Positions 310-44,444 of a DNA stretch of 44,444 nt are shown here, piece after piece. The first letter of the stretch is position 1. The number at the start of each line of letters is the position of its first letter. The stretch lies in IMG/VR virus record IMGVR_UViG_3300025679_000011, positions 1-44,444 of that record; one strand, written 5' to 3'. The stretch is from a virus. The notes beneath the pieces were generated by a model that saw nothing but the letters and a program-made list of their open reading frames with translations, was not told the DNA's origin and searched no databases. The position numbers and the translations under genes were made by a program.

Positions 310-1834
310 TTTGCAATCCAGGTTCGAAAGGGGTTGTTATTTCTTCGCCGGGGTCGCCTTCCCCTGTAGCCTCTTCTTTCTCGACTTCGAGTCCGCTATA
401 GCCGGATTTTTTGTCTAATACGATTCGTTCGCGTTCATCTTGCGAGCTGATTGCACCCGAGGTGATGAGAGAAATCCCGGTTTCGGCTTTGAGCTTATTA
501 ATTTCGGCTTGTTCGATTGCATTCACGCTGGATAGCGGCTCCCATTTAATTTCGGTTTCAAAGGGGGCGACGCCAAATTTAGGGCAAATTTCGGAGCGAA
601 TCAAAAGCGCGTGATGACGTTCTAGGAATTCCGTTAGGTCGTTTTCCTGGATGCTTTCCAGCTCTTCATGATAGCTAGTCTCCTCATGTTCGCCCGTGGA
701 GTTGAAACCCTTCGGCGTTGTCCCTAGGAGCTTCGTAGCGGGCACGTTAGCAATCGCCGCGACGATTTGATATTGACTCATAATAACGTCGTCAAGGTCC
801 GCTAAGGACGTATCAAGCTGGGTTATCTTTTCGTCAGTATCCACAAACTGAGTTGCATAATTATCACGGTAGAGGGCGGCTTTTTGTATTTTTGTATCAA
901 AAAGCGCTTGATTGCCGATTGCTGCCTCTAAATCGACCTCATGAACCATTAATCGCTTGGTCATGGCTAATTGTGGCGCTTCGTTCGCGGTTCTTTCAGC
1001 GCAATAAACGCGTTCGTAAATTTTCTGAGGGACGGAAACGCCGCCATAGAGATACGTCGGTTTTAAGATGTCTGATAAAAATCCATTTCTAAAAATCATC
1101 AAATGGGTGTGGTGATAGCGCTTGCCGTTTACCCGCCACCAGGTCGGCGTGTAAAAAAACATACTTGTAGGGTCGGCCCCTGATTCCATGTCTAACTCGG
1201 GCGTAACCCAGTAAGGGTCAATTTGAGTTATACCCCGATAGGATTTTGGCGGCACGCCATCAAGATTGAATGGTTTCTCATAAAAATCGGGGTCATCGGA
1301 ATCGATTAGAAACAAGGCGATTCGAATACCGAAAACTCGGCCCATGGTGATGAATTCTTCCATGTTCTTTTTAATTTTGTATCTAACGTCGGCTTTGCGC
1401 ATTGCGTTTAGAATTTCTTTCGAAATCTCCACGCCTTCATTTGTGGTTATCTCGTAGCCGTTCCGAATGGCGTCGCGGGCGGGCAGATTGCATGCTTTGT
1501 ACACAAGCCAGTGTTGAGCAAGAATCGATGACGTTTGATTGCCGATAAAAGTTTGATTGCCAAACCACGAAAGAAGAGAGTTTGGGACTGTGTTTTGTGC
1601 TCCCCATAAGCTTTTAGGGCCGAAGATGCCTTGGTTGTCCATGGCGACGCCTTTAAGCGACGGGATATCCTCTGTCACTTCGCGTTGTATGCTGTGGGCT
1701 ATAAGCTCATCGAAGCTAGGCAGCCGGGGGGAGGCGGCTATGAATTCGCGCAAGCTTCGTCGTTTGGGCAAATTGGGCAAAATTGTTTCGGGCTGATTTT
1801 TGCCCATTAATTTTTTAAGTAAGTTAAACATCAT
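278..1834 (-). CDS. Phage portal protein (DUF1073 type)
   Basis: The 518-residue product is the expected size for a portal, the dodecameric ring at the capsid vertex through which DNA enters and leaves. A motif near residue 370, [17 protein letters not shown], followed by a YHEELESIQ segment, is characteristic of the DUF1073 portal family. The C-terminus is acidic. I choose ATG 1834 (MMFNLL) because AAAAGGG lies just upstream on the minus strand and the start overlaps the terminase stop by about ten bases; a longer reading frame to 1867 would run deeper into the terminase gene without its own ribosome site. It sits directly after the large terminase and before the MuF-like gene, the classical order. 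Confidence 0.9.
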
Positions 1835-3437
1835 AAAACCCTTTTGAACGGCGCGCAGTAGGGGCAAAGGCTATCATAACCGAGTCGGCCACATTCGGCG
1901 AGGGCGACCCGTTTGGGCTTTTGTCAATCAGTATTTTGCCCAAATTATTCTCAGAATATGTCGGTTGAGATAGCTCAATACAGAGCTTTGCCAAAAGCGG
2001 CAAATTCGGGTCGATAGAAATTATATTTTCGGGGCTTGTTTCAATTCCTTGAGTTACTGCTCTGTGAGTAAGCTCGAATAACCGTCGTAAATGCCACCAG
2101 CCTTGAGCTTTCGCATTCGCAAAGAAATCTAAATTTGTTCGCCCTTTTGTCTTTCTGTCTTTAAGCTCACCGGGACGCTTGAAAGGGTCTCCTTCGGGGT
2201 CCACGACTTCACCCGAGCCGCGAAACGGCGTAAACGATATTTTACTCGCCCCTCGTTTCTCATTGATAATTCTTGCATCTCCTCGAGCTGCTGCACCCAA
2301 TCCGTCTGAATCATAGTCGACCTCTTCATATCCTAAAATGTCCGCTGTATGAAAAGTTCTTTCTATTGTCTTAAAAATATCCGCGCCTTTCCCCGACCAC
2401 TCGTCAAGATATTCAATTAAAAAAGCATGGCGGCCGCATAACGCATTTTTATCACGCCCCTCGTCTGCAATGTCTAACCCTAATTTTCGCTTACCTTGAG
2501 GCGTGAAACCAAGTTTTAAATGCGCGCCCACGGCAGCTTGTACCCACGCAGAAGGAATCAAAACGCCTTCTTGGGACGCTGAGTAGTCTAAATCCAGCTC
2601 TTGCGCAATTACGACCGGGTCGTCAATTTCCGCGCATTTCTTATCATACCAAGCTTGGTCTTTGCGTGGGTCGCTTCGCCAATGGAATGAGAAAACATCT
2701 ATTTTTCCGCTGTGCCGTTTACGTCCGAATGGATTCGACATCCCGCAAGGTGTAGAAACATCAATTCTGCAGTTTGTGGTATTCGACAAAGACATTTCTG
2801 TTTTTTCTGGACGTGGTAAAAATGCCGCTTCATCCACAAAATAAATACCGGCTCGCGCACCGCGCCCGATACCGTCTCCAGCTTCCCCGGTAATTACGGA
2901 TTTTGATTCCGGGAATTCAACACGCATATAAGCGCTATGTTTTCTCGGGTCCCAGCTACCGCGAAATTCTTCGGGTAGATAAGTGATAAATTCTCGAACT
3001 TTATAGAGCAATGACTTCGGGTCCCCCTTAGTGTCCACATACTCTTCTTTACGGGAGCCAAAGCCAATCGTCATACCGTCGTTAAATAAACACAGTGTGG
3101 CGCTCACCGCGCACATGAGCCAAGAAACGCCCATTTCCCGAGACTTATCATTTAATCCGGGCCTTTGGCCTTTCCAGCAACTTATGAGCCAGTTTACCCA
3201 TTCTATTTGCCGGGGGAATAATAGAAAAGGCAATAAGGCAGGCTGTCCTATTTCAACATTCCGAGGGTCGATAGTAACGCCCCAATCAATAATAAATTGC
3301 GCGGGGTTTTCTCGATAGTATTTTTTTAGTAAAGGCAATTTGTCGGGATTAGCCCGAATATAGTTAAGCGATTCTAAACGATGCTCAAACACCCGCTTAT
3401 AGTCCGGGTGTTTGAAATCGAAATCAAACGGAAGCAT
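1824..3437 (-). CDS. terL: Terminase large subunit
   Basis: This is the ATPase-nuclease motor that cuts concatemers and pumps DNA through the portal. The 537 residues show an ATPase with a KSREMGVSW Walker A variant at 98-106 and Walker [10 protein letters not shown] ending near 206. A C-terminal RNase H-like nuclease follows, with an LGLDIAD motif near 319-325, a DYDSDG segment, and a final acidic [10 protein letters not shown] motif near the end. The length is normal for the family. The ATG at 3437 shares its A with the stop of the preceding gene (TAATG), indicating translational coupling, and the gene is followed immediately by the portal. It is unusual that TerS lies more than 4 kb away. 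Confidence 0.95.
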
Positions 3438-3829
3438 TAGAGCGGCGCGACTACTGCAGGATTCAACGCAGAAGCGGCAACCGGGGCCACTGGTTCAACG
3501 GGCGCAACAGGTGCAACGGGAGCGGCAACCGGGGCCACTGGTTCAACGGGCGCAACAGGTGCAACGGGAGCGGCAACAACTGGAGCTGCCACTAAACTTG
3601 CATCCATCGGCACTTGCACGTTATCCACAAAACCAGCCGGAGGCGTTAGGCCGTTCGCATGCAAATGTGCAAGTAAACTTTGTACTTGGCCCTTAAGTAA
3701 AACGGCTGCAGTATGCAGCGTTAAACTATTGTGTGCCGCACCCATAAAATGCGACATTAAACTTTGTTTTTCTGCTTGTGCAATTGTTAATAAATTGCCC
3801 AATTCTGCGGCTACGGCTTCGATCGTCAT
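3437..3829 (-). CDS. Pro/Ala/Val-repeat protein upstream of terminase
   Basis: This is a 130-residue protein of unknown function. The N-terminal 85 residues look like a small helical domain ([18 protein letters not shown] onwards). The C-terminal third consists of a 16-residue unit of the type [16 protein letters not shown] repeated twice plus a remnant. ATG 3829 is preferred because AAGGTG lies six to seven bases upstream; the longer frame to 3877 would add a hydrophobic stretch without a ribosome site. It is cotranslated with TerL through a TAATG overlap. The low-complexity tail suggests a flexible linker or surface-exposed segment. I do not recognise the family. Confidence 0.8.
3473..3568. 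repeat. 48-bp tandem repeat, two copies, inside a gene
   Basis: Bases 3473-3520 and 3521-3568 are the same 48-bp sequence, followed by a partial third copy. The unit is in frame and encodes 16 residues of the Pro/Ala/Val repeat. The perfect identity points to recent slippage or unequal recombination, so the repeat number may vary between isolates. Confidence 0.9.
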
Positions 3830-3873: not shown

Positions 3874-4344
3874 TCATACTTTAATGAATGTTTGATAGTG
3901 CTGGATAAAGTCTTCGCCGTTCGCTGCACCCTTGCTAGAATTCCAATATTTTTTGTAATACGCATAAATAGCGTGAATATCATTCGCCTCTGGCAACGGT
4001 TCATCAAACCTAGAATACTCCATTCGCGCCATAATTGTTGCGTATTGTAAATCCCATATCATCCTAACCGGATTCGGTTTAAATGATGTACCCACAAAAG
4101 AAGAAATCATCGATTTTATTGCAGGCTGTCGTGATATTACATTAGCCCAACAATCATCGTATGTGGGTTCTTCCATTTCGTAAATCCCCATCGCTGGACC
4201 GCTTACTTGTGCAAGATATGTACCCCCTAACGATTCATGCGCCATCGTCGCTACCAATAATTCTTCAGCTTTAGGACAGTATTTCCCAATCATGCTTAAT
4301 CCCGGTCGAACTATTAAAGCCCTGAATTGCGTATTATTAATCAT
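3874..4344 (-). CDS. Putative endolysin (lysozyme/transglycosylase-like fold)
   Basis: The 156-residue product resembles phage muralytic proteins with a lysozyme-like fold: VATMAHESLGG near residues 31-41 would carry the catalytic glutamate. It is followed by QVSGPAMGIYEMEEPTYDD and a C-terminal AIYAYYKKYWNSSKGAANG segment, a layout I associate with small phage peptidoglycan hydrolases. If correct, it cleaves host cell wall glycan at lysis. No signal peptide is seen, so a holin would be needed. ATG 4344 overlaps the upstream stop (TGATG) and has AGGGG nine bases away; a TTG at 4347 is a weaker alternative. It could instead be a virion-associated muralytic enzyme. Confidence 0.62.
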   Translation of the reverse strand: MINNTQFRALIVRPGLSMIGKYCPKAEELLVATMAHESLGGTYLAQVSGPAMGIYEMEEPTYDDCWANVISRQPAIKSMISSFVGTSFKPNPVRMIWDLQYATIMARMEYSRFDEPLPEANDIHAIYAYYKKYWNSSKGAANGEDFIQHYQTFIKV

Positions 4345-6468: not shown

Positions 6469-7347
6469 TTAAATTACCGTAACATTTCCTTGATTTACTG
6501 CAATTGAAAATTGAGTATTTGCAGTAATACAATTCACTTCGATTCTATCAAATTGATTTTGTGAGGCTACGCTTGTCGAGGCTGTTTGATTACCCACGGC
6601 TGCAGTTTGCCCAGCATTTACGTTTAAAATCCAACCACCCGAGCCTTTCCCAATGATTCGCGCCGTCCAACCGAATGCGACGGTAGAGGGTAAATGGAAA
6701 ACAGTTAAAGCCGTAGTATCTGCAACGTAATTATTGCCGTTTACAAGCGTCACAGGCGTTGTTGTTTGGTCTACCCACACACCAGAAGTATCAGGATTTG
6801 GAACCCACGTTAATTGGCCTGTCCCGTCATTTTGTGGAATCGTTCCGGGCGCGCCTTGTGAGGTAGGCATGAAGACATCGTAAGAAGTGATCGCACTAGG
6901 GGGCGCAGAAATACCCACATACCCGCCTAAAACGCCGGAGAGTACGTTATAGAGTCTTATCTTTGCAGCCGCACTTCCTGCAGTGCTGGGGGTGAAAATA
7001 AAAGGCGCGTTGCCTTTTGTTTGGAAACCTACGGAAACATTTGTATCCGAACCGAAACCCCCGATATATGGCGTTCCGCCCGCTGCAGCATTTGAAAATT
7101 GAAGGTAATTAACCGCACTAGCAACCGCTGCAAAATTTAAGATTGTATTTAAATTTACGTCAATTATGCCGCTAACGATTTTAATATATGACGGGAAACT
7201 AAGCGTTACAGCGCCAGTAGGAGCGCTTGCAATGATTTGATTCGGAGAACCTGCAATCGCTGTAACAGGGCCGCCACCGGGCGCGCCAATCTGCACATTG
7301 AAAACTTGCAGCCATTTATAAAAATCACTAGGACAAATAATACTCAT
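6469..7347 (-). CDS. Fibre-like structural protein with shared C-terminal module
   Basis: The 292-residue product has beta-rich, Gly/Ala/Ser/Thr-rich sequence throughout. Residues from about 205 onward repeat the module of the next gene: LTVFHLPSTVAFGWTARIIG, GW, GQTAAVGNQTAS, SQNQFD and TANTQFSIAVNQGN. The segment around residues 120-180 (STAGSAAAKIRLYN, YDVFMPTSQGAPGTIPQND) resembles segments common in phage fibre proteins. The start overlaps the preceding stop by ATGA. It probably acts in host attachment together with the two following genes. Confidence 0.7.
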   Translation of the reverse strand: MSIICPSDFYKWLQVFNVQIGAPGGGPVTAIAGSPNQIIASAPTGAVTLSFPSYIKIVSGIIDVNLNTILNFAAVASAVNYLQFSNAAAGGTPYIGGFGSDTNVSVGFQTKGNAPFIFTPSTAGSAAAKIRLYNVLSGVLGGYVGISAPPSAITSYDVFMPTSQGAPGTIPQNDGTGQLTWVPNPDTSGVWVDQTTTPVTLVNGNNYVADTTALTVFHLPSTVAFGWTARIIGKGSGGWILNVNAGQTAAVGNQTASTSVASQNQFDRIEVNCITANTQFSIAVNQGNVTVI

Positions 7348-7529: not shown

Positions 7530-7594
7530 TGGGGGGCCTCGCATTTGAGCGGTGAAGGTTTGTCGCGATTATATCCACAGACCAAGACCAGACG

Positions 7595-8065: not shown

Positions 8066-8111
8066 TTTGACACCCACAGAAAAAGGACTGAGCCAGCGGC
8101 CTAATTCAACA

Positions 8112-8121
8112 ATGATATCAT
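8112..8121. promoter_or_regulatory. Palindromic operator candidate ATGATATCAT, copy 1
   Basis: This is a perfect 10-bp palindrome, repeated exactly at 8192-8201 and nearly so at 13539-13548. On the minus strand it overlaps a TATGAT hexamer that could be the -10 element of the late promoter reading into TerS; no good -35 is visible there, so that promoter may need an activator. Confidence 0.5.
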
Positions 8122-8161
8122 ACTTTTTTCTACTGGTTGTTTGTACAGATTTTAAGGTGTT

Positions 8162-8190
8162 TTGACCTATGATTAAATCGGTTGTAAAAT
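8162..8190 (+). promoter_or_regulatory. Sigma70-type promoter reading into the gene-free region
   Basis: TTGACC at 8162-8167 and TAAAAT at 8185-8190 are separated by exactly 17 bases. The predicted start is near 8197, inside or next to the palindrome at 8192-8201, so a protein bound there would block it. The first gene downstream does not start until 8615, leaving a leader or RNA of about 400 bases. Confidence 0.65.
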
Positions 8191-8191
8191 A

Positions 8192-8201
8192 ATGATATCA
8201 T
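8192..8201. promoter_or_regulatory. Palindromic operator candidate ATGATATCAT, copy 2
   Basis: This is the second perfect copy, 80 bp from the first and placed at the expected transcription start of the 8162-8190 promoter. Position and identity suggest one regulator controls both the leftward late promoter region and this rightward promoter. Confidence 0.5.
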
Positions 8202-8204
8202 GTA

Positions 8205-8230
8205 AGTTAGCCAGTTGTGCTCGACTTAGA
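8205..8230. repeat. Long inverted repeat, left arm
   Basis: This 26-base arm pairs with 8533-8558 at 25 of 26 positions (one mismatch near the middle). The arms enclose 302 bases. It contains one CGACTTA element. In a transcript from the 8162 promoter it would begin just a few bases after the 5' end. Confidence 0.92.
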
Positions 8231-8485
8231 GAAAATTTACATCAGTCCAAAAAAAACGACCTTTCCGGCCATATTTTAAGCCATTGCAACCACTGTCTTT
8301 ATTTTTGACGACTTAGGACGGCTTAAAAATAGAAGCAAAGAAATATAGTAAGAATAGTAAGATTTAGAGTGTGTAAGATAAAAAATGGAAAATAGAGGCG
8401 TATGTATGGTGGATTTAGACTAAGATCTTTATAATAGGGGAGTATAAGATAGAATCTCTAAGTCGTAAAAAAAAATCCTGCGTAG

Positions 8486-8532
8486 ACCCTAGTGGCGCTA
8501 GGGTTTGCCCGCCGACTTATGGGGATAAGTCG
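8486..8532. other. Two adjacent perfect hairpins
   Basis: ACCCTAG at 8486-8492 pairs with CTAGGGT at 8498-8504 over a 5-base loop. CGACTTA at 8513-8519 pairs with TAAGTCG at 8526-8532 over a 6-base loop. Neither is followed by a T-run, so they look structural and not like terminators. The second hairpin directly adjoins the right arm of the long inverted repeat. Confidence 0.7.
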
Positions 8533-8558
8533 TCTAAGTCGAGAACAACTGGCTAACT
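8533..8558. repeat. Long inverted repeat, right arm
   Basis: This is the reverse complement of 8205-8230 with a single mismatch. It is followed by the tandem 10-mer and then the ribosome site of the 8615 gene. Confidence 0.92.
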
Positions 8559-8565
8559 AAGAAAA

Positions 8566-8595
8566 ACGGCCTAAAACGGCCTAAAACGGCCTAAA
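8566..8595. repeat. Tandem 10-mer ACGGCCTAAA x3
   Basis: Three perfect head-to-tail copies of ACGGCCTAAA lie immediately before the 8615 gene. A related pair, ACGACTTAGG and ACGGCTTAAA, lies at about 8308-8327. The 10-base period matches one helical turn, as in iterons bound by replication initiators. No initiator is identified; the primase-helicase encoded at 8909-11236 is the nearest candidate. Confidence 0.8.
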
Positions 8596-8614
8596 AACAG
8601 GAGAAAAGTAAGTA

Positions 8615-8854
8615 ATGTTTCCAACAACGTGGTCATCAGCTAAGAAGACTAACTCACACAAATACCTCACTGGCAAACCATGCAAAAATGGGCACGTGAC
8701 CTACCGATACACGGCAAGCGGAGCCTGCTACGCTTGTGTTCGTAAGGTTCCTAACTTTTCAGGGAAGCAACGCGTTTGTTTTACTGTGGATACTCGAGAC
8801 GTTTTGAGGGTGAAGCAGTTTGTAGATTCTTTGAATATGATAAGGACTTTGTAG
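8615..8854 (+). CDS. Small zinc-motif protein
   Basis: The 79-residue product has the pattern Y-TGKPCKNGH followed by RYTASGACYACVRK. This is a four-ligand Cys/His motif that I know from the N-terminal zinc-binding segment of phage HNH and endonuclease VII-like proteins; no HNH nuclease domain follows, so it is either a stand-alone nucleic-acid binder or a remnant. AGGAGA stands ahead of the ATG. It is the only plus-strand gene between the late and replication operons, and the mRNA leader is the structured region described above. Its partner and function are unknown. Confidence 0.7.
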   Translation: MFPTTWSSAKKTNSHKYLTGKPCKNGHVTYRYTASGACYACVRKVPNFSGKQRVCFTVDTRDVLRVKQFVDSLNMIRTL

Positions 8855-8908: not shown

Positions 8909-11236
8909 CTAAGGGGCGTTATCTTCTTGAGCTTTGATATAAGCTTCGACCGCCTCTGAACGGTCTTGTATACGCGCTTGGGGGCTATTTCTGTGGATAT
9001 ATAGAAAAGGTCGAACCGAATCAGGAGATATAGCCCTCGGCGCTCTGCCATCATAAAGGGCCGGGTGTTTCATATACCCTAAGTTTTTAAAAGAGGCTCC
9101 CAAATCTTTAGTGTTTACGTTTTTAAACAATGTACTCAAATAGGCATTACATCTAGTTGAAGCAATCCAACCCCCTCTAAAGCCCAGCACGCCGCTTTCT
9201 ATGGCTTCGACGATGCTTTTCTCAACCCCGGTCTTAGATAGGGCGATCACTTCGTCATACGCGCTTGTACGCGGCGCACGGCTGAGAATGTGCGGGTCTG
9301 TGTCTGTGGGTATCTCGAAGTTATTCAGATAGTAGTTGAGGGCATCTTGACCCCCTTTTGCGTTCCAGTTCTGCAGGTCTTTGAAATAGGCATCGTCCAT
9401 GCCGTCCCGGTGTAAATCTTGTATCTCTTGTTGAGCACAAAACAGGATGCAATAACGACGGTCATTTTCTGTGATTTTGAAAGCATTTTTATAGTTAGTG
9501 TTAAAGAAAAAGTTAGCTACAATTTCTCGGGTAGTTTTGTCAACACCTTTGGCTTCAATTTCGAGGACTGGGTCGCTGATTATGGACTTAAGCATATCCA
9601 TAATTTCTTGATTTTTACCCGCTACCATGTGGAAATCTTCCACACAAATGAACGTTTTTCTATAGACCCAGCTATTAAAGCGTGAAGTAAGCTCTGCAGG
9701 CTTGGGGGAGTGACAATACACCATGCCTATGGCTTTCTTAATCCAGCTCAAAAGGATGGTTTTGCCGTTACCCTGCATCCCTTGTAGAACGATAGCCCAG
9801 TTAATTCTATGCCCTGGTTTTTGGACATTAGCAGCGAAATAAGACAGTAAAATAAGCGCGTCTCTTTCTGTGGGTAAAAGTAAGTTAACATGATTTAGAA
9901 AGGGCGTTACATCGCCCCGTTTACTCGGAAGAATGAGGGGCCGATAGGTATTAACCTCGATTCTATCGGGTTGATGAATAATTTTCCCAAAAGGTTGCGT
10001 GGGGTCGAAACAAGTAGAATCTACAAAAGGATGAATACCTTTTAAAACTTCGGATTGTGTAAAAGCTTCGAAAGCGTCCCTAATCACACGAGCGCCGTCG
10101 GCCGTCATAATAAAGCGTTTTCCGCCGTATTGTGCTTTGAATTTATCAGAGCTAAGTAAGCCATATTTTGGGGTGAGTATTTTATGTTCATCGCTTACAT
10201 AAACACAGCCTTTAAAATAGTCTAGTTGCTGTGAAGCATGTAAAAAAGGATTAGTGGGATTGTGTATTGTCTGTGTTTCTTGCGTCTGCTCTGGCTCTTC
10301 GGTCTTTGCCTGTGGGTATACATAGCGGGATTGCTGAGCGTTTATGGCGTTGTTTATGGTCATTTCTGCTAAATAGGTGGGGTGGAAATCCCATTTATTA
10401 CGCAGTAGCGCGGAGGCTCTCATGACTCTGTTTATCTGTGCTGCGTCTTGAGTAAAGTACGCAAGACGTTTAGCTAGGTCATAATCTGCGGCTGAGTTGT
10501 CCCAAACTTGGGCCGTATTTTGGGGCGGGTATGCTTTTGCCAGTATTTCGGGGTCTGCGGTCCATAGCTCTTGTGGTTTAGCCATATTTCCCCACAGCAT
10601 TTCGCCGCAAATGTTGCTACCTAGAAAAAGGTCTATGATTTTTTGGTCTTCTTGGGGAAGGTTTTCTGTGGGTAGTTTTGCTATTTCGGTGGGCTTTTTA
10701 GGGGGTTTTGTAAAATGGTCAGTAATTAGGGCATTTAATGGCCTTGAAAAATCGATTGAGGCGTCGCCCTGAGCGCTTATACCTGTTAAAGCTACGAATC
10801 TTCCTTTTGTATAAAGTTCGAGACCGTCTCTAGTTCTGTTTGCGTGGTTCTTATTCTCCACAATCCCGGAGCCGAAAAGGTGAAAGCCTTTGCGCGAAGT
10901 CGATATTTCGAAAGCTGCATTAGGGAAGCGATTAAAAATGGCTACGGCCTCGGGTTTCCAAGCATCGCCGACAACGGCGTCGTCTACATCCACAAACCAG
11001 AAGGGGTCGTTTTCTGTGAAGACGAAACCCACGCCATGATTGGGGCCAAGGGCATTTGCTGTGGTAACCGCGTGGTGGGCATCCATCCATATTTTTTGGT
11101 CATCTATACCCGCATAGGCCCCCGTTATTGGGTGCAAAGGCACCTTATCGGTTTTTCCCGATTTGCCGTCACGGGGTTTAAGTTGGTAGACTATAAATTG
11201 TGGATATGGCAGGAAAGCTTGCGGGATACGGTGCAT
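8909..11236 (-). CDS. Primase-helicase (prim-pol-like N-terminus, SF3/D5-type helicase)
   Basis: This is a 775-residue replication protein. The N-terminus resembles bifunctional primase-polymerase domains, with FWFVDVDDAV near residue 80 (acidic catalytic pair) and STSRKGFHLFGSG about 30 residues later. The C-terminal half is an SF3-type helicase: GMQGNGKTILLSW (Walker A, about 485-497), KTFICVEDFHM (Walker B, about 525-535) and FFFNTNYKNAFKITENDRRY (sensor and arginine finger). It would prime and unwind DNA at the phage origin, as P4 alpha and D5-like proteins do. I choose ATG 11236 because TGGAGAT precedes it; an upstream ATG at 11287 lies in low-complexity DNA. It is last in a leftward operon with helicase and VRR-NUC genes. 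Confidence 0.88.
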   Translation of the reverse strand: MHRIPQAFLPYPQFIVYQLKPRDGKSGKTDKVPLHPITGAYAGIDDQKIWMDAHHAVTTANALGPNHGVGFVFTENDPFWFVDVDDAVVGDAWKPEAVAIFNRFPNAAFEISTSRKGFHLFGSGIVENKNHANRTRDGLELYTKGRFVALTGISAQGDASIDFSRPLNALITDHFTKPPKKPTEIAKLPTENLPQEDQKIIDLFLGSNICGEMLWGNMAKPQELWTADPEILAKAYPPQNTAQVWDNSAADYDLAKRLAYFTQDAAQINRVMRASALLRNKWDFHPTYLAEMTINNAINAQQSRYVYPQAKTEEPEQTQETQTIHNPTNPFLHASQQLDYFKGCVYVSDEHKILTPKYGLLSSDKFKAQYGGKRFIMTADGARVIRDAFEAFTQSEVLKGIHPFVDSTCFDPTQPFGKIIHQPDRIEVNTYRPLILPSKRGDVTPFLNHVNLLLPTERDALILLSYFAANVQKPGHRINWAIVLQGMQGNGKTILLSWIKKAIGMVYCHSPKPAELTSRFNSWVYRKTFICVEDFHMVAGKNQEIMDMLKSIISDPVLEIEAKGVDKTTREIVANFFFNTNYKNAFKITENDRRYCILFCAQQEIQDLHRDGMDDAYFKDLQNWNAKGGQDALNYYLNNFEIPTDTDPHILSRAPRTSAYDEVIALSKTGVEKSIVEAIESGVLGFRGGWIASTRCNAYLSTLFKNVNTKDLGASFKNLGYMKHPALYDGRAPRAISPDSVRPFLYIHRNSPQARIQDRSEAVEAYIKAQEDNAP

Positions 11237-11394
11237 ATTTGTTAATCTCCATTTGTTGACTGTAAAAAGTTGGCTGTTGGCAATCATTGGTGGTTGTTAA
11301 AAAGTTGGCAATCGTTAAATGTTGACGTTAAGGATTGTTGATTTTTCATTGTTATCTCTTTGTTAATTTCTTTATGACGTGTGTGTGTGTGTGT
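11237..11394. other. Low-complexity leader with GTTG repeats and a (GT)8 tract
   Basis: Upstream of the primase-helicase, the plus strand repeats GTTG-type words many times, including AAAAGTTGGC twice, and ends in eight GT dinucleotides at 11379-11394. On the minus strand this is the leader of the primase gene. A short open frame (MKNQQSLTSTFNDCQLF...) crosses it but is made of the repeats and is probably not coding. The tract may be a protein-binding array or simply repeat-prone DNA. Confidence 0.5.
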
Positions 11395-11494: not shown

Positions 11495-11897
11495 ATTTGT
11501 GGGTACATATTGTACCTTCGGAGTTAGCAAAGGCAGCATCACCCCCCATCTTATTGATCAGGTTTATAAAAGCGAGCTGAGCTTTTTCCCGGTCACTGCC
11601 TGAATATTTCCATGTACTAGTTTTTATTTCTCTTGCCAAAAAAACGCCTAAAGTTTTACCCACCATATCTTGTGTTATCAAAACGGGTTTGATACCGATC
11701 AAGTCGGAAGATTTTAGAACGGTGTTTAGGCGTTGTGATTCATTTGCTAAACCGTAGCGTAGAAAACGGCCTTCGCGGGTATACGTTGCGCCGACATTAT
11801 TTCGCCAAAGCATAGCACCCGCGCGGGTTGCTTCGAGGCGAACAAGGTCGGTGATGTGTAATTCTGAGGTCATGTAATGTGGGTACGTGTAACTCAC
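11493..11897 (-). CDS. VRR-NUC domain nuclease
   Basis: This 134-residue protein fits the VRR-NUC family of small PD-(D/E)XK nucleases that cut branched or flap DNA during replication and recombination. GVFLAREIKTSTW provides the E-x-K core, followed by DREKAQLAFINLINKMGG, which contains the characteristic Q and conserved glycines. An N-terminal ATRAGAMLWRNNVGATYT segment is also typical. The start is uncertain: GTG 11897 is possible, and ATG 11873 lies inside the frame; neither has a strong ribosome site. It follows the SF2 helicase by seven bases. Confidence 0.85.
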   Translation of the reverse strand: MSYTYPHYMTSELHITDLVRLEATRAGAMLWRNNVGATYTREGRFLRYGLANESQRLNTVLKSSDLIGIKPVLITQDMVGKTLGVFLAREIKTSTWKYSGSDREKAQLAFINLINKMGGDAAFANSEGTICTHK

Positions 11898-13518: not shown

Positions 13519-13527
13519 AAGATCCCC

Positions 13528-23642: not shown

Positions 23643-23675
23643 AAAAGCATACGATACTTACCCACAGGAAGAATG

Positions 23676-32938: not shown

Positions 32939-33237
32939 AAACTCGCAATTTCAGTGGCCGACGCATAAATCAAAAATTGAGAAATATTAAATTGTGGATA
33001 ATAGGGAAGCTCATTATTCATTGTTGTTAATATGAAATTTCCGTTTTGCAAGTATCGATATGGAATCATAGGATAACCGGCAACTAATCTCTGCCCCGAA
33101 ATTACCAATACATTATTGATGTAGACTGTGGCAACCGTAACGTCGCCCGTAGTATTCAATATGATGTCGAAGAAATTACCATCGACGCTAATCGAAAAGG
33201 ATTGATTCGGTATCGGCCTTAAGTTTATTTGTCGCAT
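32935..33237 (-). CDS. Baseplate plug protein
   Basis: The 100-residue product has the length and sequence style of the small plug protein described in Pam3-type baseplates (MRQINLRPIPNQSFSISVDG, YRYLQNGNFILTTMNNELPY). It sits between the Dit-like and hub genes. It would close the hub channel before ejection. Confidence 0.72.
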   Translation of the reverse strand: MRQINLRPIPNQSFSISVDGNFFDIILNTTGDVTVATVYINNVLVISGQRLVAGYPMIPYRYLQNGNFILTTMNNELPYYPQFNISQFLIYASATEIASL

Positions 33238-33821: not shown

Positions 33822-35056
33822 GCTAACCTCGAGTCGTCAAAATTGTTTATCACCTGAGATATCATCGTTTTTAAAGGTGATTCAATAGCGGCAGCAATGC
33901 CCTCGGCGTCTGTCGCTTGCGTTTGTACGTTAATTTCGCCTATATCCACAGCCACAGAAGAGGATTTTTGATTCAATATGCTTGAGCTTCCCGCTGCGGA
34001 CAATACGCTTTTAGGGTACAAGGCGTCGGTAAAAGCCGCTGGGTTTTTTCTCGACTTCAATACAAAGTCGGATTGTTCATCTAGCGGCTGTAAGAGGCCA
34101 TTATTATTGGCAAAGTTATAAAAAGATTCACTGAGCTTGCTCGCCGCTTCTTTTACGTCGCCCAATGCGCCTACTAAATCCCTTGAGAAATTAGAATAGA
34201 ATACCGAGTTTTCTTTTAAACTATCGGAGAGTTTAGCTATCTTATCGGGGATATCTTTAGTTTCTATGCCAGGTATAGGATTTGCGACGATGCTTCCTAG
34301 ACTGCGGACAATGCCCGCGAAGAATTCTTTGTTTTCGTGAAGAAAACTCCCCACATTATTAACCTTATTAAGGCCCGTTGTTGCTGCAGGTAGCACGACA
34401 TCGCCAACGTCACGAAAAAGCGTTCCGGCTATTTGTTGGGTATCTTTTAAGGCATTGTTAAAAGCGACCGCTTTTTCCTTGTTTTCATCCGTAACCACAC
34501 CAAAACGCTTTGAGCGCTCTACGGCTTCATCTAATGCCGCTTTACCCCGAGCTAGGGCTAGCGTGTTTTCTTCGCTGAGCCCGAAGGCTTTACCCACAGC
34601 AAGAGCCTCTACCTTGGGTAAAGCCTTTAATTGGTCCGCAAAATTAGGGATGAAATTTAAAACTTCTTGGCCGGTAATGCCGAGCTGTCTAGCAATGCCT
34701 TTTATACTCGCTTGAAAATCGGAAGCCTTGCCGCCGCCTTGCTCTATCGCTCGGCCCCATGCGTCAAAATCGCCTACGTTCACATCTAACGCGTCCGCAA
34801 CTGAACCTAATTGCTCGGCATAATCTGCAGCCAACTTTATGCCAGTGACGAGAGCGGCGGCAGAAAATACGCTTAGTAATGCAGAACGGCCCGAAGTGAT
34901 GATTTTATTAAACGAAGAACCAAGAGTCTCTGTGGATTTATCGGCAGCTTTTAAAGACTTAGTCAACCCGTCTACATCAGCTTGAGCGGTTTTTGTATTC
35001 TTTTTTAAATCTTTTGTGTCGCCCTTAAAAAGGATGTAAAGCGTACTTAATATCAT
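33818..35056 (-). CDS. Tape measure protein
   Basis: The 412-residue product is helical with a hydrophobic segment (SALLSVFSAAALVTGIKLAA, about residues 58-77) and repetitive coiled parts (LKKNTKTAQADVDGLTKSLK). The segment GSVADALDVNVGDFDAWGRA is common in tape measure proteins. At about 1.5 angstrom per residue it predicts a short tail near 60 nm. It follows the frameshifted chaperone genes and overlaps them by ATGA. Confidence 0.88.
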   Translation of the reverse strand: MILSTLYILFKGDTKDLKKNTKTAQADVDGLTKSLKAADKSTETLGSSFNKIITSGRSALLSVFSAAALVTGIKLAADYAEQLGSVADALDVNVGDFDAWGRAIEQGGGKASDFQASIKGIARQLGITGQEVLNFIPNFADQLKALPKVEALAVGKAFGLSEENTLALARGKAALDEAVERSKRFGVVTDENKEKAVAFNNALKDTQQIAGTLFRDVGDVVLPAATTGLNKVNNVGSFLHENKEFFAGIVRSLGSIVANPIPGIETKDIPDKIAKLSDSLKENSVFYSNFSRDLVGALGDVKEAASKLSESFYNFANNNGLLQPLDEQSDFVLKSRKNPAAFTDALYPKSVLSAAGSSSILNQKSSSVAVDIGEINVQTQATDAEGIAAAIESPLKTMISQVINNFDDSRLA

Positions 35057-35585: not shown

Positions 35586-36049
35586 TACGCTGGGGATACC
35601 TGTTCAAATATAAAATTGTAAGTCTTGGATTTAAGCATGCCCGTTGATGTCAACGCATTACCTAAAGTTCCGCTTATGATTTTCCCATTCGTATATGTAA
35701 ACGTGCGGGGGCGCGAGAACAACGAAGTGATTGGATAAATTAAAATCAAAGTCATTAAATCAGGAATAACCAGTTTACCCACACCAGGCCGCGCGGCGTT
35801 AAGCAAGATGGACAAATTAACGTCGTCTTGGCTTGTGGGCACTACGCTAAGATTGACTTCAACGCGAGTCGCTTTCGACCACGTTACAAGCGTGCCGTTC
35901 ACGTTCATTTCACCATCACCGACGGGCAACTCGTTAATCTCAATAGGGTCCACATCGTGCGCCCATTGAGAAATTGTGAACCCTGTCGGGAAGGAAATAG
36001 AAGCGCGCAAAATCGCTTTAGTTCCAAAACCAGAAATATTTATAGTCAT
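35585..36049 (-). CDS. Tail tube protein (probable)
   Basis: This 154-residue beta-rich protein (MTINISGFGTKAILRASISF...) lies directly downstream of the sheath gene and upstream of the chaperones, the fixed place of the tube gene in contractile phages. The size is normal for a tube subunit. DVDPIEINELPVGDGEMNVN and the closing LKSKTYNFIFEQV suit the fold. The call rests mainly on position. Confidence 0.75.
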   Translation of the reverse strand: MTINISGFGTKAILRASISFPTGFTISQWAHDVDPIEINELPVGDGEMNVNGTLVTWSKATRVEVNLSVVPTSQDDVNLSILLNAARPGVGKLVIPDLMTLILIYPITSLFSRPRTFTYTNGKIISGTLGNALTSTGMLKSKTYNFIFEQVSPA

Positions 36050-37600: not shown

Positions 37601-38155
37601 TTATACCCCTACTATTGTGTTTGTGATTGATGATACCACCGGGTCTATCGTTTTGATAACTTGTTGGTACGTCAAAGTAAAGTCGAAACTGGGCGACGCC
37701 TCGTACCTGTCCTGGTCGTCTATGAAATAAGGGTTCGTAATATCTTGAACCCTTAAAATACTGATTCCTGCTAAATTCAAAGCATTTAAAGTATTTTCTG
37801 CTTGCAAAATCATACACACATCATTTACTAAATCGGACGCCGTGTACGTGGCTGTATTTGTGGGTACAGAGATAACAAGCGCGCTCACTTGAAAAGTGGT
37901 TTTAAAACACTGCACCATCAAATGAGTTTCTTGATTCGCTACCGAATCCCAATAAGAAATATTTTGCGGGAATCCGTATCGGACATCGCCTAACTTATAA
38001 AAATAAACTGTAGGCCCTACATTCGTTCCCTGCATCGTGGGTTGATACTTTTGTTTCACGATAACTAACGGGTCTAAATATCCGAGTGTAATTAGCCCTT
38101 GTTGTACTAAGGGTAAAAACACTCGGATTAAATCATTCGTTGTTATCGGCAACAT
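37601..38155 (-). CDS. Neck/tail terminator protein (probable)
   Basis: The 184-residue product lies just upstream of the sheath, where the tail terminator is expected. PTVYFYKLGDVRYGF, NQETHLMVQCFKTTFQVSAL and SPSFDFTLTYQQVIKTIDPV match the LIC_12616-like neck terminator family in style. It would cap the tail tube and sheath and bind the neck. Confidence 0.75.
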   Translation of the reverse strand: MLPITTNDLIRVFLPLVQQGLITLGYLDPLVIVKQKYQPTMQGTNVGPTVYFYKLGDVRYGFPQNISYWDSVANQETHLMVQCFKTTFQVSALVISVPTNTATYTASDLVNDVCMILQAENTLNALNLAGISILRVQDITNPYFIDDQDRYEASPSFDFTLTYQQVIKTIDPVVSSITNTIVGV

Positions 38156-39108: not shown

Positions 39109-39605
39109 TCGGTTACGCCCTCAAAAACGGCAGAGCTTAAAGTCGAAAGCATGTAGCCAGTATCCACAAGAGGCTTTCTAAGCGTTGCGGTAATCGTCTT
39201 GTTTTTCCGTCTAGCCAAACGCGCGCGCACCGTGCTTTCTGCTAACGCGGGGCTATGGATGTTTTTGATTGTGATTTTAACTTGCGCTGCAGCCTTTAGG
39301 CTTATCACTGTGAACATGCCGTTTACAGTTTGTGCGCCTGCCATAACTTTTCTCGATTCATTAGCCGCCAAAGTTTCCCACTCTGTTTCTCTCTGTGTGA
39401 TTGTAGGGCGCATGAAAGGGCGCGGCGGTATATTCCTGGCCGGTGCCCCATATTCGTTGATTGTAGCGACTTGAGCGACGGGTGTTCCATCGGGATAAAC
39501 TGCAGACTTAAACCAACCGACTTTAGCCGAAGTTTTCTCTATATCCACAATAGCTTTCTGAAGCCGCTTTGCCGCCTCTGTGGTTACTACTTTAACGGTG
39601 GTCAT
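39105..39605 (-). CDS. Head-tail joining protein, HK97 gp10-like (probable)
   Basis: The 166-residue product has the layout of gp10-like tail-completion proteins: a helical start (TTEAAKRLQKAIVDIEKTSA), AKVGWFKSAVYPDG, VAQVATINEYGAPARNIPPR and PFMRPTITQRETEW, then a basic helix. ATG 39605 overlaps the upstream stop by ATGA; the longer open frame to 39749 is shadow sequence of the DUF4054 gene. Confidence 0.75.
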   Translation of the reverse strand: MTTVKVVTTEAAKRLQKAIVDIEKTSAKVGWFKSAVYPDGTPVAQVATINEYGAPARNIPPRPFMRPTITQRETEWETLAANESRKVMAGAQTVNGMFTVISLKAAAQVKITIKNIHSPALAESTVRARLARRKNKTITATLRKPLVDTGYMLSTLSSAVFEGVTE

Positions 39606-40490: not shown

Positions 40491-41615
40491 TTAAAGCCCG
40501 GCTACACGGGTAACTGCCCAAGGACGCTTCAACATAGCGCCCGCTGTTGCGTTGCTATAATCTTCGATGAAGCCCTTAGCCAATTTCTCCACACCCAGAA
40601 CCATGAATTTAGCAGGCACAGGTTGAATCCAAACGCGTCCGCCGTCTGTGGATAAATCATTTACGCGCTCGGCGTATAGATATCCGACATTCAGGCCACC
40701 GTCGGCAGCATTCAACTCAGGAGCCGAAATCACTTGAATTTTAGGATATGTTGCGGACAACCAACCACGCACAGAAATGCCAAAATCAGACGTTACAGAA
40801 AGATAGTCAACAACATTTGTGGCTAATGCCAAAGTCATCTCTAATTTCTCGGGGTCGATTTGGTCTTGTGATTGTGAACGCAAGGTCGAAATCATTGTAC
40901 GGATATCGGCGCAAATTTCTAAAAATGTCTTGGTGGACCAGAATGTGTGTCCGCTTACGCCATTAGGCACGGTCACATATGAAGGCAAACCAGGGTCATT
41001 TAAGAAACCATACGTCAAATTGTCGCCAGCATTAAAGCCGTAAAACGCCACAAAGTTACGTTGAATTTCGAGCGCATCGGCTGCGGCTTCACGTTTGCTG
41101 CCTGCAGTGTCGATATTGATACGAGCGGCGCGAGCTTCTTCAAGGTCAGAAACTTGCAAACCTTCTTCAAAGCGAACAACTGTACGGTACACAAAGTTTA
41201 CGTTCCAGCTTGATTGCGGGACGTTTGTGTAATCGCCGTATGGTTGTGAACTGCCGGTCATTTCGAGCACGCCTTGTACGACCTGTTCGTCTTCCCATGC
41301 GCCGATGGTTTGAATTCCCATAAGGTCATCAGACTTTCGAGCGGCGGTGATTACTTTGACCCAACCTGGCAGCCAAGACTGTAAGAACTGAACGGGGACG
41401 GCAATTGACCCGGTTGTCACTGTGGGTTGAATAGCATCCATACCAAAGCCACGTCGAGCGCCTTGTCTAGCGTCCATAATTTCGCGCAATTTTTCATCAC
41501 GCAGGTGGATACCGATTTTTGATAACGCGCGATAGTTTTTAGAATCGAAACTTTCGATAGCTTTAATCTTTCGCGGGTCAATATACGAATGTACTTTACT
41601 TGGAGTTAATTGCAT
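40491..41615 (-). CDS. Major capsid protein, DUF2184 type
   Basis: The 374-residue product fits the DUF2184 capsid family, an HK97-fold group: residues 60-100 (GMDAIQPTVTTGSIAVPVQF, FLQSWLPGWVKVITAARKSD), GQTIGAWEDEQVV-like segment, DLEEARAARINIDTAGSKRE, and a C-terminal LGVEKLAKGFIEDYSNATAG. It forms the icosahedral shell. It follows the protease/scaffold and cement genes in the usual order. Confidence 0.9.
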   Translation of the reverse strand: MQLTPSKVHSYIDPRKIKAIESFDSKNYRALSKIGIHLRDEKLREIMDARQGARRGFGMDAIQPTVTTGSIAVPVQFLQSWLPGWVKVITAARKSDDLMGIQTIGAWEDEQVVQGVLEMTGSSQPYGDYTNVPQSSWNVNFVYRTVVRFEEGLQVSDLEEARAARINIDTAGSKREAAADALEIQRNFVAFYGFNAGDNLTYGFLNDPGLPSYVTVPNGVSGHTFWSTKTFLEICADIRTMISTLRSQSQDQIDPEKLEMTLALATNVVDYLSVTSDFGISVRGWLSATYPKIQVISAPELNAADGGLNVGYLYAERVNDLSTDGGRVWIQPVPAKFMVLGVEKLAKGFIEDYSNATAGAMLKRPWAVTRVAGL

Positions 41616-41627
41616 TTTTCATATTCC

Positions 41628-42143
41628 TTATTGGACGACCGCTGGGATAACTTCTTGCATTTTGATCACTGCCAAGCCTGCGGCGGCGACGGTGTAGTAC
41701 CAAACATAGGCATTTGCATACAACTTACCGCTTGGTAGAGAAACACCGGGGGCGATTGTGGATAGTGCGCCGGTGGTTTCATCGTAAATAACGACGTCGC
41801 CAATTGCAGCGGCAGCGGGAAGAGTAACCACAAAAGAACCTTCGGTCGCAAGTTCACCCTGTGAGAAATTCGCTAGGGTAAGCGTTGGACTTAGTGGAGC
41901 ACCGCCGGGAGCGCCGTAACTTGCGGAGCCTTTTGGATTAACCAAAATACCTGCAAATACTGCTGTTCCGCCGGGGTTTCCTACTTGTGCAAAACCTTGT
42001 GAGAGAACGGAAAAAGCGTAACCGAAAATATTAGGGCTAGCACTATTTAAAGTCCACGAAGAAGAGACGCGCGGAGCGTTTGCGTAAATTTCGCCCGGGA
42101 CGCCAAAGCCCATTTGAAGGGCTACTGTGTTTTGGAAAGGCAT
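41628..42143 (-). CDS. Capsid cement/decoration protein, Gp24-like
   Basis: The 171-residue product begins with VALQMGFGVPGEIYANAPRV, the signature opening of the structural cement family that stabilises DUF2184 capsids. It is rich in Gly, Ala and Ser and beta-structured. It lies directly upstream of the capsid gene. Confidence 0.82.
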   Translation of the reverse strand: MPFQNTVALQMGFGVPGEIYANAPRVSSSWTLNSASPNIFGYAFSVLSQGFAQVGNPGGTAVFAGILVNPKGSASYGAPGGAPLSPTLTLANFSQGELATEGSFVVTLPAAAAIGDVVIYDETTGALSTIAPGVSLPSGKLYANAYVWYYTVAAAGLAVIKMQEVIPAVVQ

Positions 42144-42146
42144 GTT

Positions 42147-43523
42147 TTAGTTGCTCCCTTTGATGTAAGCATCGATTTGGTCTGAGGAATGAGCGGCCAT
42201 TGAATCTTGAGCGAACGCGGAAACGTGTGATTGTTCACGGCCTTTCAAGAAACCTTCCAACATAGCTTCTTCTTGGCCTTTAGCGGCTTTAAGATTTAGC
42301 TTATCTAATGCGTATTTGATAACTTCGGCATGAGATTTTGTAGCGTGGTCGAAAGTACCCACAAGCCAAGAGACGCGTTCAGCGAGTTTGTCACGCTTTG
42401 AAACTTCATACATGACGCCTTTTGCATCAAGCGCGGTGCGTGAAAGTTGTTCGATTCTGCGTTCTAGTTGTGCAATTCTTCGGTCTTGTGAATCCATTGC
42501 TTTTTCCCCAGGCTTTTTGGTTTCGCCGCCGTTTTCTTCTTTAGATTCGTCGCTATCGTCATCTTCGGCTTTCTTTTCCATTTCTGGACTTTCTTCTTTT
42601 GCGTCTAAAAATGGCTTATCGGATTCTTTTTCCTCTGGCCCTTTCTCTTCCATTTCGTCGCCTTCATTTTTCTTTGTGATGTCTTCGGGGCCTTTAGTTT
42701 CCCGGTCATCATCTTCGGCGCGATTGCCTGCTTTCATTCCAGTTTTAACCATTTCGGTTAGGTCTAAGACCATTTTGTGAATATCTTGTAAAGTCGGCGC
42801 TTTGTCGTCTTTCATTTTTTCAGTCATTTTAAATTCCCTTACGTCAAAAGCGCAGCGGAAGAAATCCACACGCGCATGGTCTAGAACTGCCACATCGTGC
42901 CCGGCTCTGCCTTCGTCAACGAGGGCTAAGTGATTGCCACGGATTTGGCGTTGTATTGCATCGTATCTTACACCGTTATACACACCGCTTACTAGGTCGT
43001 AAACACATCGGTAGCCGATAGACAACTCTTTTTTGCCGTCTTTAATGAATTTGCTTAATTTCTCACTAAAAACCTTAAGATTGCCTTTTAAATAACCGTC
43101 TTCATAAAAAACATCTTCGCCGATTACGCCGTGAACGCCTTTCTTTGAGGCTTCGGTCAATCCTTCGTCTTCAGAACCTAACATAACGTGGTCGTCAATC
43201 CAGGGCACTAACTTAAACGATTCTAGCGTATCGGGGTTGTTTAGCTCTTCTTCGGGGCGGTACACATTATAAATCTTATTCGGGTCTAACGACGGGTCGA
43301 TTTGCGCGCCGGAGTATTCGAAAACGCCCACTTTAGAAATCGGGTTTCCTTTAATCTCGAACCATCCGTTTTCGTCGGGTTCGCTACGCTGGGATTCGGA
43401 ATCTTTCGATTCAGAATATGCGATCGCCACGCTCTGAGCCTCGGGCTTTCCTGCGGCTCTTTCACGGGCTACGTTCTCTTTAAAACCTGGTGTTCCGGGT
43501 TTTGCGCCTTTAATTAGTGGCAT
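42147..43523 (-). CDS. Capsid maturation protease (DUF2213) fused to scaffold domain
   Basis: The 458-residue product has an N-terminal segment [20 protein letters not shown], then a DUF2213 protease domain (about 60-225: [55 protein letters not shown], with H and S as probable catalytic residues). A strongly acidic Glu/Lys-rich linker and a coiled-coil scaffold part ([20 protein letters not shown]) follow. It shapes and then matures the procapsid. AAGGGG precedes the ATG. Confidence 0.87.
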
Positions 43524-43741
43524 TTGTTAAAATCCCCTTGAAATTCGACACGTTTCTGCATTATGTCGATTTATTTTGGTTATTTCGACAAGTGGGAGTC
43601 TCTCCTCCCTGTCACCGACGATATGTAGTTGCTCGACCGAGGGTCGGCCGCTGTTCAAGGTCCTACTTCCTTCATGTGGTTCTCTAGTACCCACACAACT
43701 GCCTGCTCGCTTGCGCGACTCTAGCGACATCGAATCGATGC
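43524..43741. other. Intergenic gap between MuF-like and protease genes
   Basis: This 218-bp stretch has open frames on both strands (87 and 69 codons) but no good ribosome site for either, and both look like chance. A small inverted repeat CGACC/GGTCG lies at 43634-43646, and one copy of the dispersed octamer lies near 43688. It is the largest gap in the otherwise gap-free head operon, so a promoter or RNA element is possible. Confidence 0.5.
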
Positions 43742-44444
43742 TTAAACTTCTCGCCCATCGTCCATTTCGACAATCGGTTCCATGAAGCATAAGCAGTTAA
43801 TTGCCTGGCCTGGAATACCTCTTACGGGAGGCTGCCCTTTATTATCGGCATTAATTATAGGCAAATTGTCAAAGCTAAAAATAACATTGTCCATGGCTAC
43901 ATGTGAGGGGCGCGGAGTTTGTGAACCGCCGCTATGATGCCAGCGGAACTTCTTCACCCCTGCAGACGTGAGCCTTTCGCGATTAATAGCGCTGTAAGCT
44001 TTCCGAGTTTGGTCGCTCGCAATTAAGGTAGCACGTTTTCTGGTGATTCCGTTGTATTTCTCGATTTGTGGGATTAAGTCAAAAAGACCATTTCCCGACG
44101 AAATTGAGCGCATGACCGACCCGGTGATATCGTTAAAATATTCTTGTGGAATGGATTTAATTAGCGATACGTTTTCAGCGACAATTGCTTGTGTAATAAA
44201 TTCCAAGCCTTTTGGGATAGACGAAGTATTTAAAATCAACCCGCCAGTTAATTGCTTTAAACTTTGGCTTAAAGTTACGGCGCTTGTTTTTAGCGTATTT
44301 TTAAGCATTTTATCCACAATACCAGAAACCCGCGCATTAAAAAGCTTTTGGAATTTTAAGCGTAACGCGTTAAGTATTCGCTTGCTCTGTGTGGTTACTG
44401 AATAATCCGGGGTAACGTCGTCTGCATCCATTGCGGAAGTATTG
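43742..44444 (-). CDS. MuF-like head morphogenesis protein, C-terminal part (5' end at 309)
   Basis: This is the 3' part of the 294-residue gene that starts at base 309 across the assembly join; the last 127 bases shown here repeat 1-127. The C-terminal 100 residues fit the SPP1 gp7/MuF family: KRATLIASDQTRKAYSAINR, GVKKFRWHHSGGSQTPRPSH, then VRGIPGQAINCLCFMEPIVE with the paired cysteines. Proteins of this type are minor head components packaged with the DNA. The gene follows the portal directly. Confidence 0.87.
   Translation of the reverse strand, partial: NTSAMDADDVTPDYSVTTQSKRILNALRLKFQKLFNARVSGIVDKMLKNTLKTSAVTLSQSLKQLTGGLILNTSSIPKGLEFITQAIVAENVSLIKSIPQEYFNDITGSVMRSISSGNGLFDLIPQIEKYNGITRKRATLIASDQTRKAYSAINRERLTSAGVKKFRWHHSGGSQTPRPSHVAMDNVIFSFDNLPIINADNKGQPPVRGIPGQAINCLCFMEPIVEMDDGREV
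44318..44444. repeat. Terminal direct repeat, right copy (assembly overlap)
   Basis: Identical to bases 1-127. See the left copy for interpretation. It lies inside the MuF-like gene, which would be unusual for a true packaged terminal repeat and supports an assembly origin. Confidence 0.93.

Follow-up and report, generated by a model that had tools for sequence, protein, structure and literature searches.

In experiments, the primase-polymerase (PrimPol) of NrS-1 primes at the template sites 5'-GTGG-3' and 5'-GTGA-3', and also at TTTGGTTA; primer synthesis begins opposite the base immediately 5' of the site, and up to three bases can be skipped (PMC8718748). In phage T7, the Okazaki fragments measure 1-6 kb (PMC12839067). 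Even for T7, the sites at which primases begin in vivo, and the reason that some candidate sites go unused, are not settled. Short asymmetric sites are also scattered over phage genomes as the stoperators of the mycobacteriophage L5 type, which act in repressor-based lysogenic silencing. In phage genomes, Chi is an octamer found in excess, under the influence of an enzyme reading a single strand (PMC3784561). Here we describe the octamer TGTGGRTA in the IMG/VR virus record IMGVR_UViG_3300025679_000011 (positions 1 to 44,444; the window, meaning the whole 44,444-bp stretch analyzed). Judged from the sequence, TGTGGRTA is likely to be the phage-specific template start site of the phage's own NrS-1-like primase, kept under genome-wide selection, with YGTG(G/A)NYR variants in its relatives. 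Primase recognition sites are a known kind of element; the predicted ones of the window are unusual in their strength, their length, and their one-sided flanking tract.

The window contains 57 exact copies of TGTGGRTA, 25 on the plus strand and 32 on the minus strand, of which 32 read TGTGGATA and 25 read TGTGGGTA (Table 1). A control search with the reversed pattern gave 2 copies. An earlier note on this DNA had counted about 56 copies and reported over-representation on both strands, and this holds: the third-order Markov model that the note proposed as a check does not predict a similar count (6.0 expected), and no 8-mer of the window is more over-represented under it than TGTGGATA (32 versus 3.5 expected) and TGTGGGTA (25 versus 2.5). 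When synonymous codons were shuffled within the 69 called genes, 8.45 ± 2.5 copies remained (maximum 15 in 300 shuffles), compared with 55 observed there. This rules out protein sequence and codon usage as the cause, as had been claimed, but the excess over the Markov and codon-shuffle nulls is 6.5-9.5 fold instead of the proposed 20 fold. All three codon phases do occur, although unevenly (22 copies in sense phase 2, 14 in antisense phase 1, and 10 in antisense phase 0), and 54 of the 57 sites lie wholly inside genes. The region of 9-25 kb, for which a peak of about 27 copies had been described, holds 29 against about 20.5 under uniformity, but overall the spacing is indistinguishable from random (coefficient of variation 0.83, p = 0.09; p values here and below are nominal, each for its single statistic). 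On the same strand, the copies are spaced 1.4-1.8 kb apart, which falls inside the size range of the T7 Okazaki fragments.

The word is strict, in that T at position 1 and GTGG are required, followed by A or G at position 6 (T is weaker), then T, and then A (T is weaker). CGTGGRTA occurs 4 times versus 3.2 expected, so position 1 tolerates T only, and the free choice of first base proposed earlier is not seen. About 11 copies had been reported for a second word, TGTGGTTA, which is indeed enriched (11 versus 2.7 expected). TGTGGRTT is mildly enriched (20 versus 7.2), and TGTGGCTA shows no enrichment in the window (4 versus 2.1). TGTGGTTA and TGTGGRTT may represent weaker versions of the predicted primase site. 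The next base on the 3' side is T after 16 copies of TGTGGATA and C after 4, and it is C after 11 copies of TGTGGGTA and T after 4 (Fisher p = 0.002); this coupling yields ATAT or GTAC and is absent at GGRTA outside the motif.

The sequence on the 5' side of the motif is also biased. Pyrimidines make up 64% of positions -1 to -8 (p = 2e-9), compared with 47% of positions -9 to -12 and 48% of the 3' side. A like 5' tract is present at TGTGGYTA sites (65% pyrimidine) and absent (49-53%) at the other TGTGG sites of the window (TGTGGNR, TGTGGNC) as well as at CGTGG and RGTGG sites. Such a one-sided tract would look like a template for purine-rich primers, whereas a binding site on double-stranded DNA has no obvious need of it. 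The copies are arranged around the probable replication origin, with nine minus-strand sites to the left and then nine plus-strand sites to the right (p = 0.0003 by shuffling of strand labels; the statistic was picked after the pattern was seen). Lagging-strand template sites would be expected to point outward near the origin in this way.

The proposed reader of the motif is the product of the gene at 8909..11287. It is an NrS-1-like AEP primase-polymerase by its catalytic motifs, helix-bundle domain, and ring helicase, with predicted activity. The AEP motifs D-x-D and S-x-S...H are conserved, with invariant residues Asp-100, Asp-102, Ser-129, Ser-131, and His-136, and so is the helicase Walker A motif. 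In addition to the profiles listed in Table 1, the protein matches PF19263. A sequence comparison with the Protein Data Bank retrieves NrS-1 (E 2e-15), as well as 6k9c and 6k9e for the ring helicase part, and the best matches of an AlphaFold model (mean pLDDT 80) are both halves of the NrS-1 PrimPol. The C-terminal ring helicase is of the NrS-1/D5 type by both sequence match and Foldseek (E 8e-17). In the NrS-1 and pRN1 enzymes, it is the helix-bundle domain to which the template site binds.

The GTGG core of TGTGGRTA matches the specificity of the NrS-1 PrimPol, so that the motif can be read as T (the start base), GTGG, and RTA. The two systems have homologous enzymes that combine PrimPol, helix-bundle, and ring helicase domains, and they share the core, with the NrS-1 primer starting at the base 5' of it; the rank-1 word of the NrS-1 genome is TGTGGACA (7 versus 0.8 expected). 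They differ in that the whole-protein identity is only 23%, the window site is longer (8 nucleotides plus the 5' tract) and 6.5-9.5 fold enriched, and the window has a family A polymerase, whereas none is annotated in NrS-1. TTTGGTTA is at chance in the NrS-1 genome (1 versus 1.1). The T7 gp4 primase also uses dispersed short template sites, 5'-(G/T)GGTC-3', in a phage of similar size, but gp4 is an unrelated DnaG-type enzyme.

The reading of TGTGGRTA as a primase start site draws on the over-representation of the word, which codon usage does not explain, on the tract found on one side only, on the copies pointing outward near the origin, on the presence of an NrS-1 PrimPol homologue, and on the association seen in other phages (below). 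In the proposed mechanism, the replicative helicase would expose the template strand, and the helix-bundle domain would dock on GTGG(RTA). The first nucleotide, an A, would be laid opposite the invariant T directly 5' of GTGG, and the primer, a purine-rich oligomer, would be extended along the pyrimidine-rich positions -1 to -8 until the family A polymerase takes it over. The sites, about 28 on each strand and 1.4-1.8 kb apart, would determine where Okazaki fragments begin on either template strand. Each lineage with an NrS-1-like enzyme may tune its own variant of the shared YGTG(G/A)NYR, with selection at synonymous positions keeping the sites. Whether this amounts to a phage-specific "priming code" is, in our estimate, an even question: an extended YGTG(G/A)NYR word would be selected genome-wide at synonymous sites, in a variant fitted in each lineage to the helix-bundle domain, and sequence alone would then suffice to predict primase specificity and Okazaki starts. 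If the primase reading holds, some phage genomes visibly write their primase sites into their sequence, with a pyrimidine tract marking the primer template on one side, and lagging-strand priming can leave its mark on an entire coding genome. It would also provide a testable prediction for hundreds of uncharacterized PrimPols, whose specificity could be inferred without purification. A search of the literature available on genome-wide enrichment of primase sites found nothing relevant.

Related phages were compared by their top dispersed words. Because 43 of 50 DNA-polymerase relatives carry the primase, random viral contigs served as primase-free controls, and because the high-scoring words of some relatives proved to be in-gene tandem repeats, copies had to lie 150 bp or more apart to be counted. 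The idea that all relatives share TGTGGRTA was rejected, since primase relatives at 35-41% identity do not have it as such; the comparison with related phages suggested in the earlier note does, however, often place other YGTGG words at the top. Of 87 other primase-positive records, 13 have YGTGG in their rank-1 dispersed 8-mer (2.1 expected from the codon-shuffle null, p < 1e-5), as against 0 of 26 controls. RGTG(G/A) shows no excess in the rank-1 words of the primase-positive records (1 versus 1.5). The YGTGGNYR class has a median ratio to expectation of 1.25 in primase-positive records and 0.93 in controls (p = 9e-4), and the RGTGGNYR class is below expectation (0.8). Top dispersed words of similar form are TGTGGCTA (G016), TGTGGCCG (G002), CGTGGCCG (G023), and CGTGGCCA (L190) in primase relatives, and Acinetobacter phage Scuro, which has a homologous primase, is enriched in dispersed AATGTGGT.

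An independent set was made of relatives of the major head protein (46-66% identity), the longer records of which were split by the presence of the primase. In 50 such loci of at least 9 kb, TGTGGRTA is at chance (38 versus 41.8), which means that the word does not come with the structural lineage. YGTG(G/A) is among the top three words in 4 of 9 head relatives with the primase (0.3 expected, p = 1.5e-4) and in 0 of 10 without it. Two of the primase-positive relatives contain TGTGACTG (G120; 12 versus 1.1), which is the GTGA form predicted by the NrS-1 biochemistry, and TGTGGACA (G140; 11 versus 1.2).

Several observations weigh against the primase reading. Most primase-positive records have no strong word, and the rank-1 words vary with the null and the shuffle run, with YGTGG found in 9 of 87 records in one run and 13 of 87 in another. 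In an unbiased 5-mer scan of primase-positive versus control records, TGTGG and CGTGG rank only 114th-115th of 512. Replication is weak in a further 15 loci on bacterial contigs, most of which hold partial homologues flanked by host sequence: GTGG reaches the top 10 in 2 of them. The 5' tract is clear only in the window, weak in Shewanella phage SppYZU01, and absent in most relatives. Farther from the origin, the strands are mixed: 37 of the 57 copies are concordant genome-wide (one-sided p = 0.017 at a fixed origin), and the whole-genome polarity is not significant over all possible origins (p = 0.29). The words of the relatives show no clear pattern of whole-genome strand polarity. The T7 primase pentamers are only 1.3-1.45 fold enriched over the codon null (1.36-1.45 for the strong ones) and are not top words, with TGGTC at rank 9 and GGGTC at rank 49 of 512, far weaker than in the window. 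A single-protein search of viral and bacterial collections found no close relative by primase, and the DNA-polymerase relatives reach 57% identity at best. Finally, two primase-minus head relatives carry CGCGGCA words, and a record with a homologous primase and a GC content of 0.66 (G001, identical to L069; IMGVR_UViG_3300037419_000912) carries an unrelated dispersed word without GTGG, CGTATNACG, in 44 copies on both strands, where N is T in 18, G in 14, A in 12, and never C. Strongly dispersed words therefore have more than one cause.

Of the roles suggested in the earlier note, primase start sites are supported, and DnaA titration, E. coli-type Chi, and lysogenic silencing are disfavored by the tests. 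We consider it unlikely that the copies are genome-wide binding sites on double-stranded DNA for a phage protein acting in compaction, silencing, or partition, akin to the stoperators. Like stoperators, the motif is asymmetric, short, and scattered, on both strands and in early and late genes; many small open reading frames (ORFs) are without assignment, and there is partial symmetry at the RTAY end (TGTGGATAT occurs 16 times and TGTGGGTAC 11 times, the mixed forms 4 times each; p = 0.002). Yet the site as a whole is asymmetric, with an 8-nucleotide tract confined to one side and one strand, nearly all copies are within genes, and no integrase, repressor, or ParB was recognized among the genes scanned, some small ORFs being outside the scan. 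The YGTGG-form words also track the primase and not the head protein lineage. A methyltransferase target is highly improbable: a non-palindromic 8-mer could be modified by a phage or host enzyme, but no methyltransferase was found among the genes scanned, and modification alone explains neither the enrichment, the 5' tract, nor the primase link. Both the binding-site and the modification explanations account for less, as they leave aside the one-sided tract, the orientation at the origin, and the primase association.

A Chi-like signal for recombination or DNA-end protection, read by host RecBCD/AddAB or by a phage exonuclease, would fit a G-rich octamer with a strand preference near the origin in a phage that encodes an exonuclease and an annealing protein. 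Phages without RecBCD inhibitors accumulate E. coli Chi, with observed/expected ratios of 2.4-3.1 (PMC3784561). However, E. coli Chi, GCTGGTGG, is at chance in the window (1 versus 1.1), although the host's own Chi may differ; the enrichment of TGTGGRTA is far above these published values of 2-3 fold, and the word is at chance in the fifty head-protein relatives, so that this reading is distinctly improbable. DnaA boxes, for titration or use of the host initiator, can hardly be credited. TGTGGATA does correspond to 8 of the 9 bases of TGTGGATAA, and TTATCCACA occurs 8 times versus 1.0 expected, but the overlap that had been pointed out is incidental: the 25 TGTGGGTA copies are not DnaA boxes, the 9-mer TTATNCACA does not describe the copies, since the completing A is not preferred at the ninth base (14 of 57), and the other boxes TTATACACA, TTATGCACA, and TTATTCACA total 2 in the window. 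E. coli Chi and DnaA boxes were rejected on these window counts.

The positions of the motif and of other features are given in Table 1. Because the repeat at the two ends is exact, the window is one complete genome, either circular or circularly permuted and about 44,317 bp long. Besides genes for the head and a contractile tail, it has a replication module of helicase, exonuclease, single-stranded DNA-binding protein, family A polymerase, and primase. The noncoding region at 8.08-8.61 kb, with tandem and inverted repeats, is probably the replication origin. The cumulative GC skew has its minimum at 6-8 kb and its maximum near 28-31 kb, on the opposite side of the circle.

Table 1. Exact matches to TGTGGRTA and other features, in window coordinates
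Feature	Positions	Strand	Remarks
Motif TGTGGATA	838..845	-	
Motif TGTGGATA	3622..3629	-	
Motif TGTGGGTA	4089..4096	-	
Motif TGTGGGTA	6772..6779	-	
Motif TGTGGGTA	6912..6919	-	
Motif TGTGGATA	7572..7579	-	last minus-strand copy left of origin
Motif TGTGGATA	8785..8792	+	first plus-strand copy right of origin
Motif TGTGGATA	8992..8999	+	
Motif TGTGGGTA	9305..9312	+	
Motif TGTGGGTA	9869..9876	+	
Motif TGTGGGTA	10311..10318	+	
Motif TGTGGGTA	10667..10674	+	
Motif TGTGGATA	11199..11206	+	
Motif TGTGGGTA	11498..11505	+	
Motif TGTGGGTA	11878..11885	+	
Motif TGTGGATA	11997..12004	-	
Motif TGTGGATA	12059..12066	+	
Motif TGTGGATA	13188..13195	-	
Motif TGTGGGTA	14180..14187	+	
Motif TGTGGATA	14408..14415	-	
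Motif TGTGGATA	15025..15032	+	
Motif TGTGGATA	16488..16495	-	
Motif TGTGGGTA	16762..16769	+	
Motif TGTGGATA	17064..17071	-	
Motif TGTGGATA	18914..18921	-	
Motif TGTGGATA	19432..19439	-	
Motif TGTGGATA	20044..20051	+	
Motif TGTGGATA	20189..20196	-	
Motif TGTGGATA	21075..21082	+	
Motif TGTGGATA	22074..22081	-	
Motif TGTGGGTA	22224..22231	-	
Motif TGTGGGTA	22247..22254	+	
Motif TGTGGGTA	23388..23395	-	
Motif TGTGGGTA	23659..23666	-	
Motif TGTGGATA	23955..23962	+	
Motif TGTGGATA	24137..24144	-	
Motif TGTGGGTA	24903..24910	-	
Motif TGTGGATA	27809..27816	+	
Motif TGTGGGTA	28222..28229	-	
Motif TGTGGGTA	28805..28812	+	
Motif TGTGGGTA	29868..29875	+	
Motif TGTGGGTA	30512..30519	-	
Motif TGTGGATA	31207..31214	-	
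Motif TGTGGATA	31794..31801	+	
Motif TGTGGATA	32260..32267	-	
Motif TGTGGATA	32993..33000	+	
Motif TGTGGATA	33943..33950	-	
Motif TGTGGGTA	34591..34598	-	
Motif TGTGGGTA	35776..35783	-	
Motif TGTGGGTA	37859..37866	+	
Motif TGTGGATA	39161..39168	-	
Motif TGTGGATA	39542..39549	-	
Motif TGTGGATA	40647..40654	+	
Motif TGTGGATA	41757..41764	+	
Motif TGTGGGTA	42356..42363	-	
Motif TGTGGGTA	43688..43695	-	
Motif TGTGGATA	44311..44318	-	
Direct terminal repeat, 127 bp	1..127 and 44318..44444		exact identity of both copies
Probable replication origin, noncoding	8080..8610		3 tandem AAAACGGCCT; 26-bp and 18-bp inverted repeats; adjoins primase gene
NrS-1-like primase-polymerase/helicase, 792 residues, proposed motif reader	8909..11287	-	phrog_1829 E 1e-98
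Helix-bundle domain, residues 265-322	10322..10495	-	PF22763 (NrS-1 HBD) E 2e-12
DEAD/ResIII-type helicase of replication module	11905..13548	-	phrog_16 E 6e-92
PD-(D/E)XK exonuclease (DUF2800)	14327..15424	+	profile matches
Gp2.5-like single-stranded DNA-binding/annealing protein	16694..17605	+	phrog_7011 E 1e-61
Family A DNA polymerase	18832..21147	+	phrog_17 E 7e-91

The 10-bp unit of the probable origin is iteron-like, and its three tandem copies, at 8563-8596, lie just upstream of a small plus-strand ORF at 8615-8854. AGTGATC-like copies are visible near 7.76-7.94 kb. A few 9-mers of the window around GATCGC and AGTGATCG are enriched, including ATGCGATCG and AAGTGATCG (each 4 versus about 0.1 expected).

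Repeated words of other kinds were found in the relatives. In L017, L020, L034, L038, L047, L053, and L066, the high-scoring words were rejected as analogues of the motif, being tandem repeats inside genes; the units are 6-21 bp long, for example the 15-bp AAGGTTCGCGCCGTA, and look like those of repeat-protein genes. Two head relatives of 67-71 kb without the primase (G137 and G139) contain the strong dispersed words GCGCGGCA (20 versus 2.2) and TCGCGGCA (28 versus 3.9), which may belong to another primase or to some other signal spread over the genome. In the 5-mer scan, CGGTA/TACCG (p = 5e-6) and GATAC/GTATC (p = 4e-5) separate primase-positive from control records better than YGTGG does, a difference that is possibly compositional. 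In the window itself, an 81-residue ORF at 22392-22637 on the plus strand has a weak, below-cutoff match to Tad2-like proteins of Thoeris anti-defense (E 0.006).

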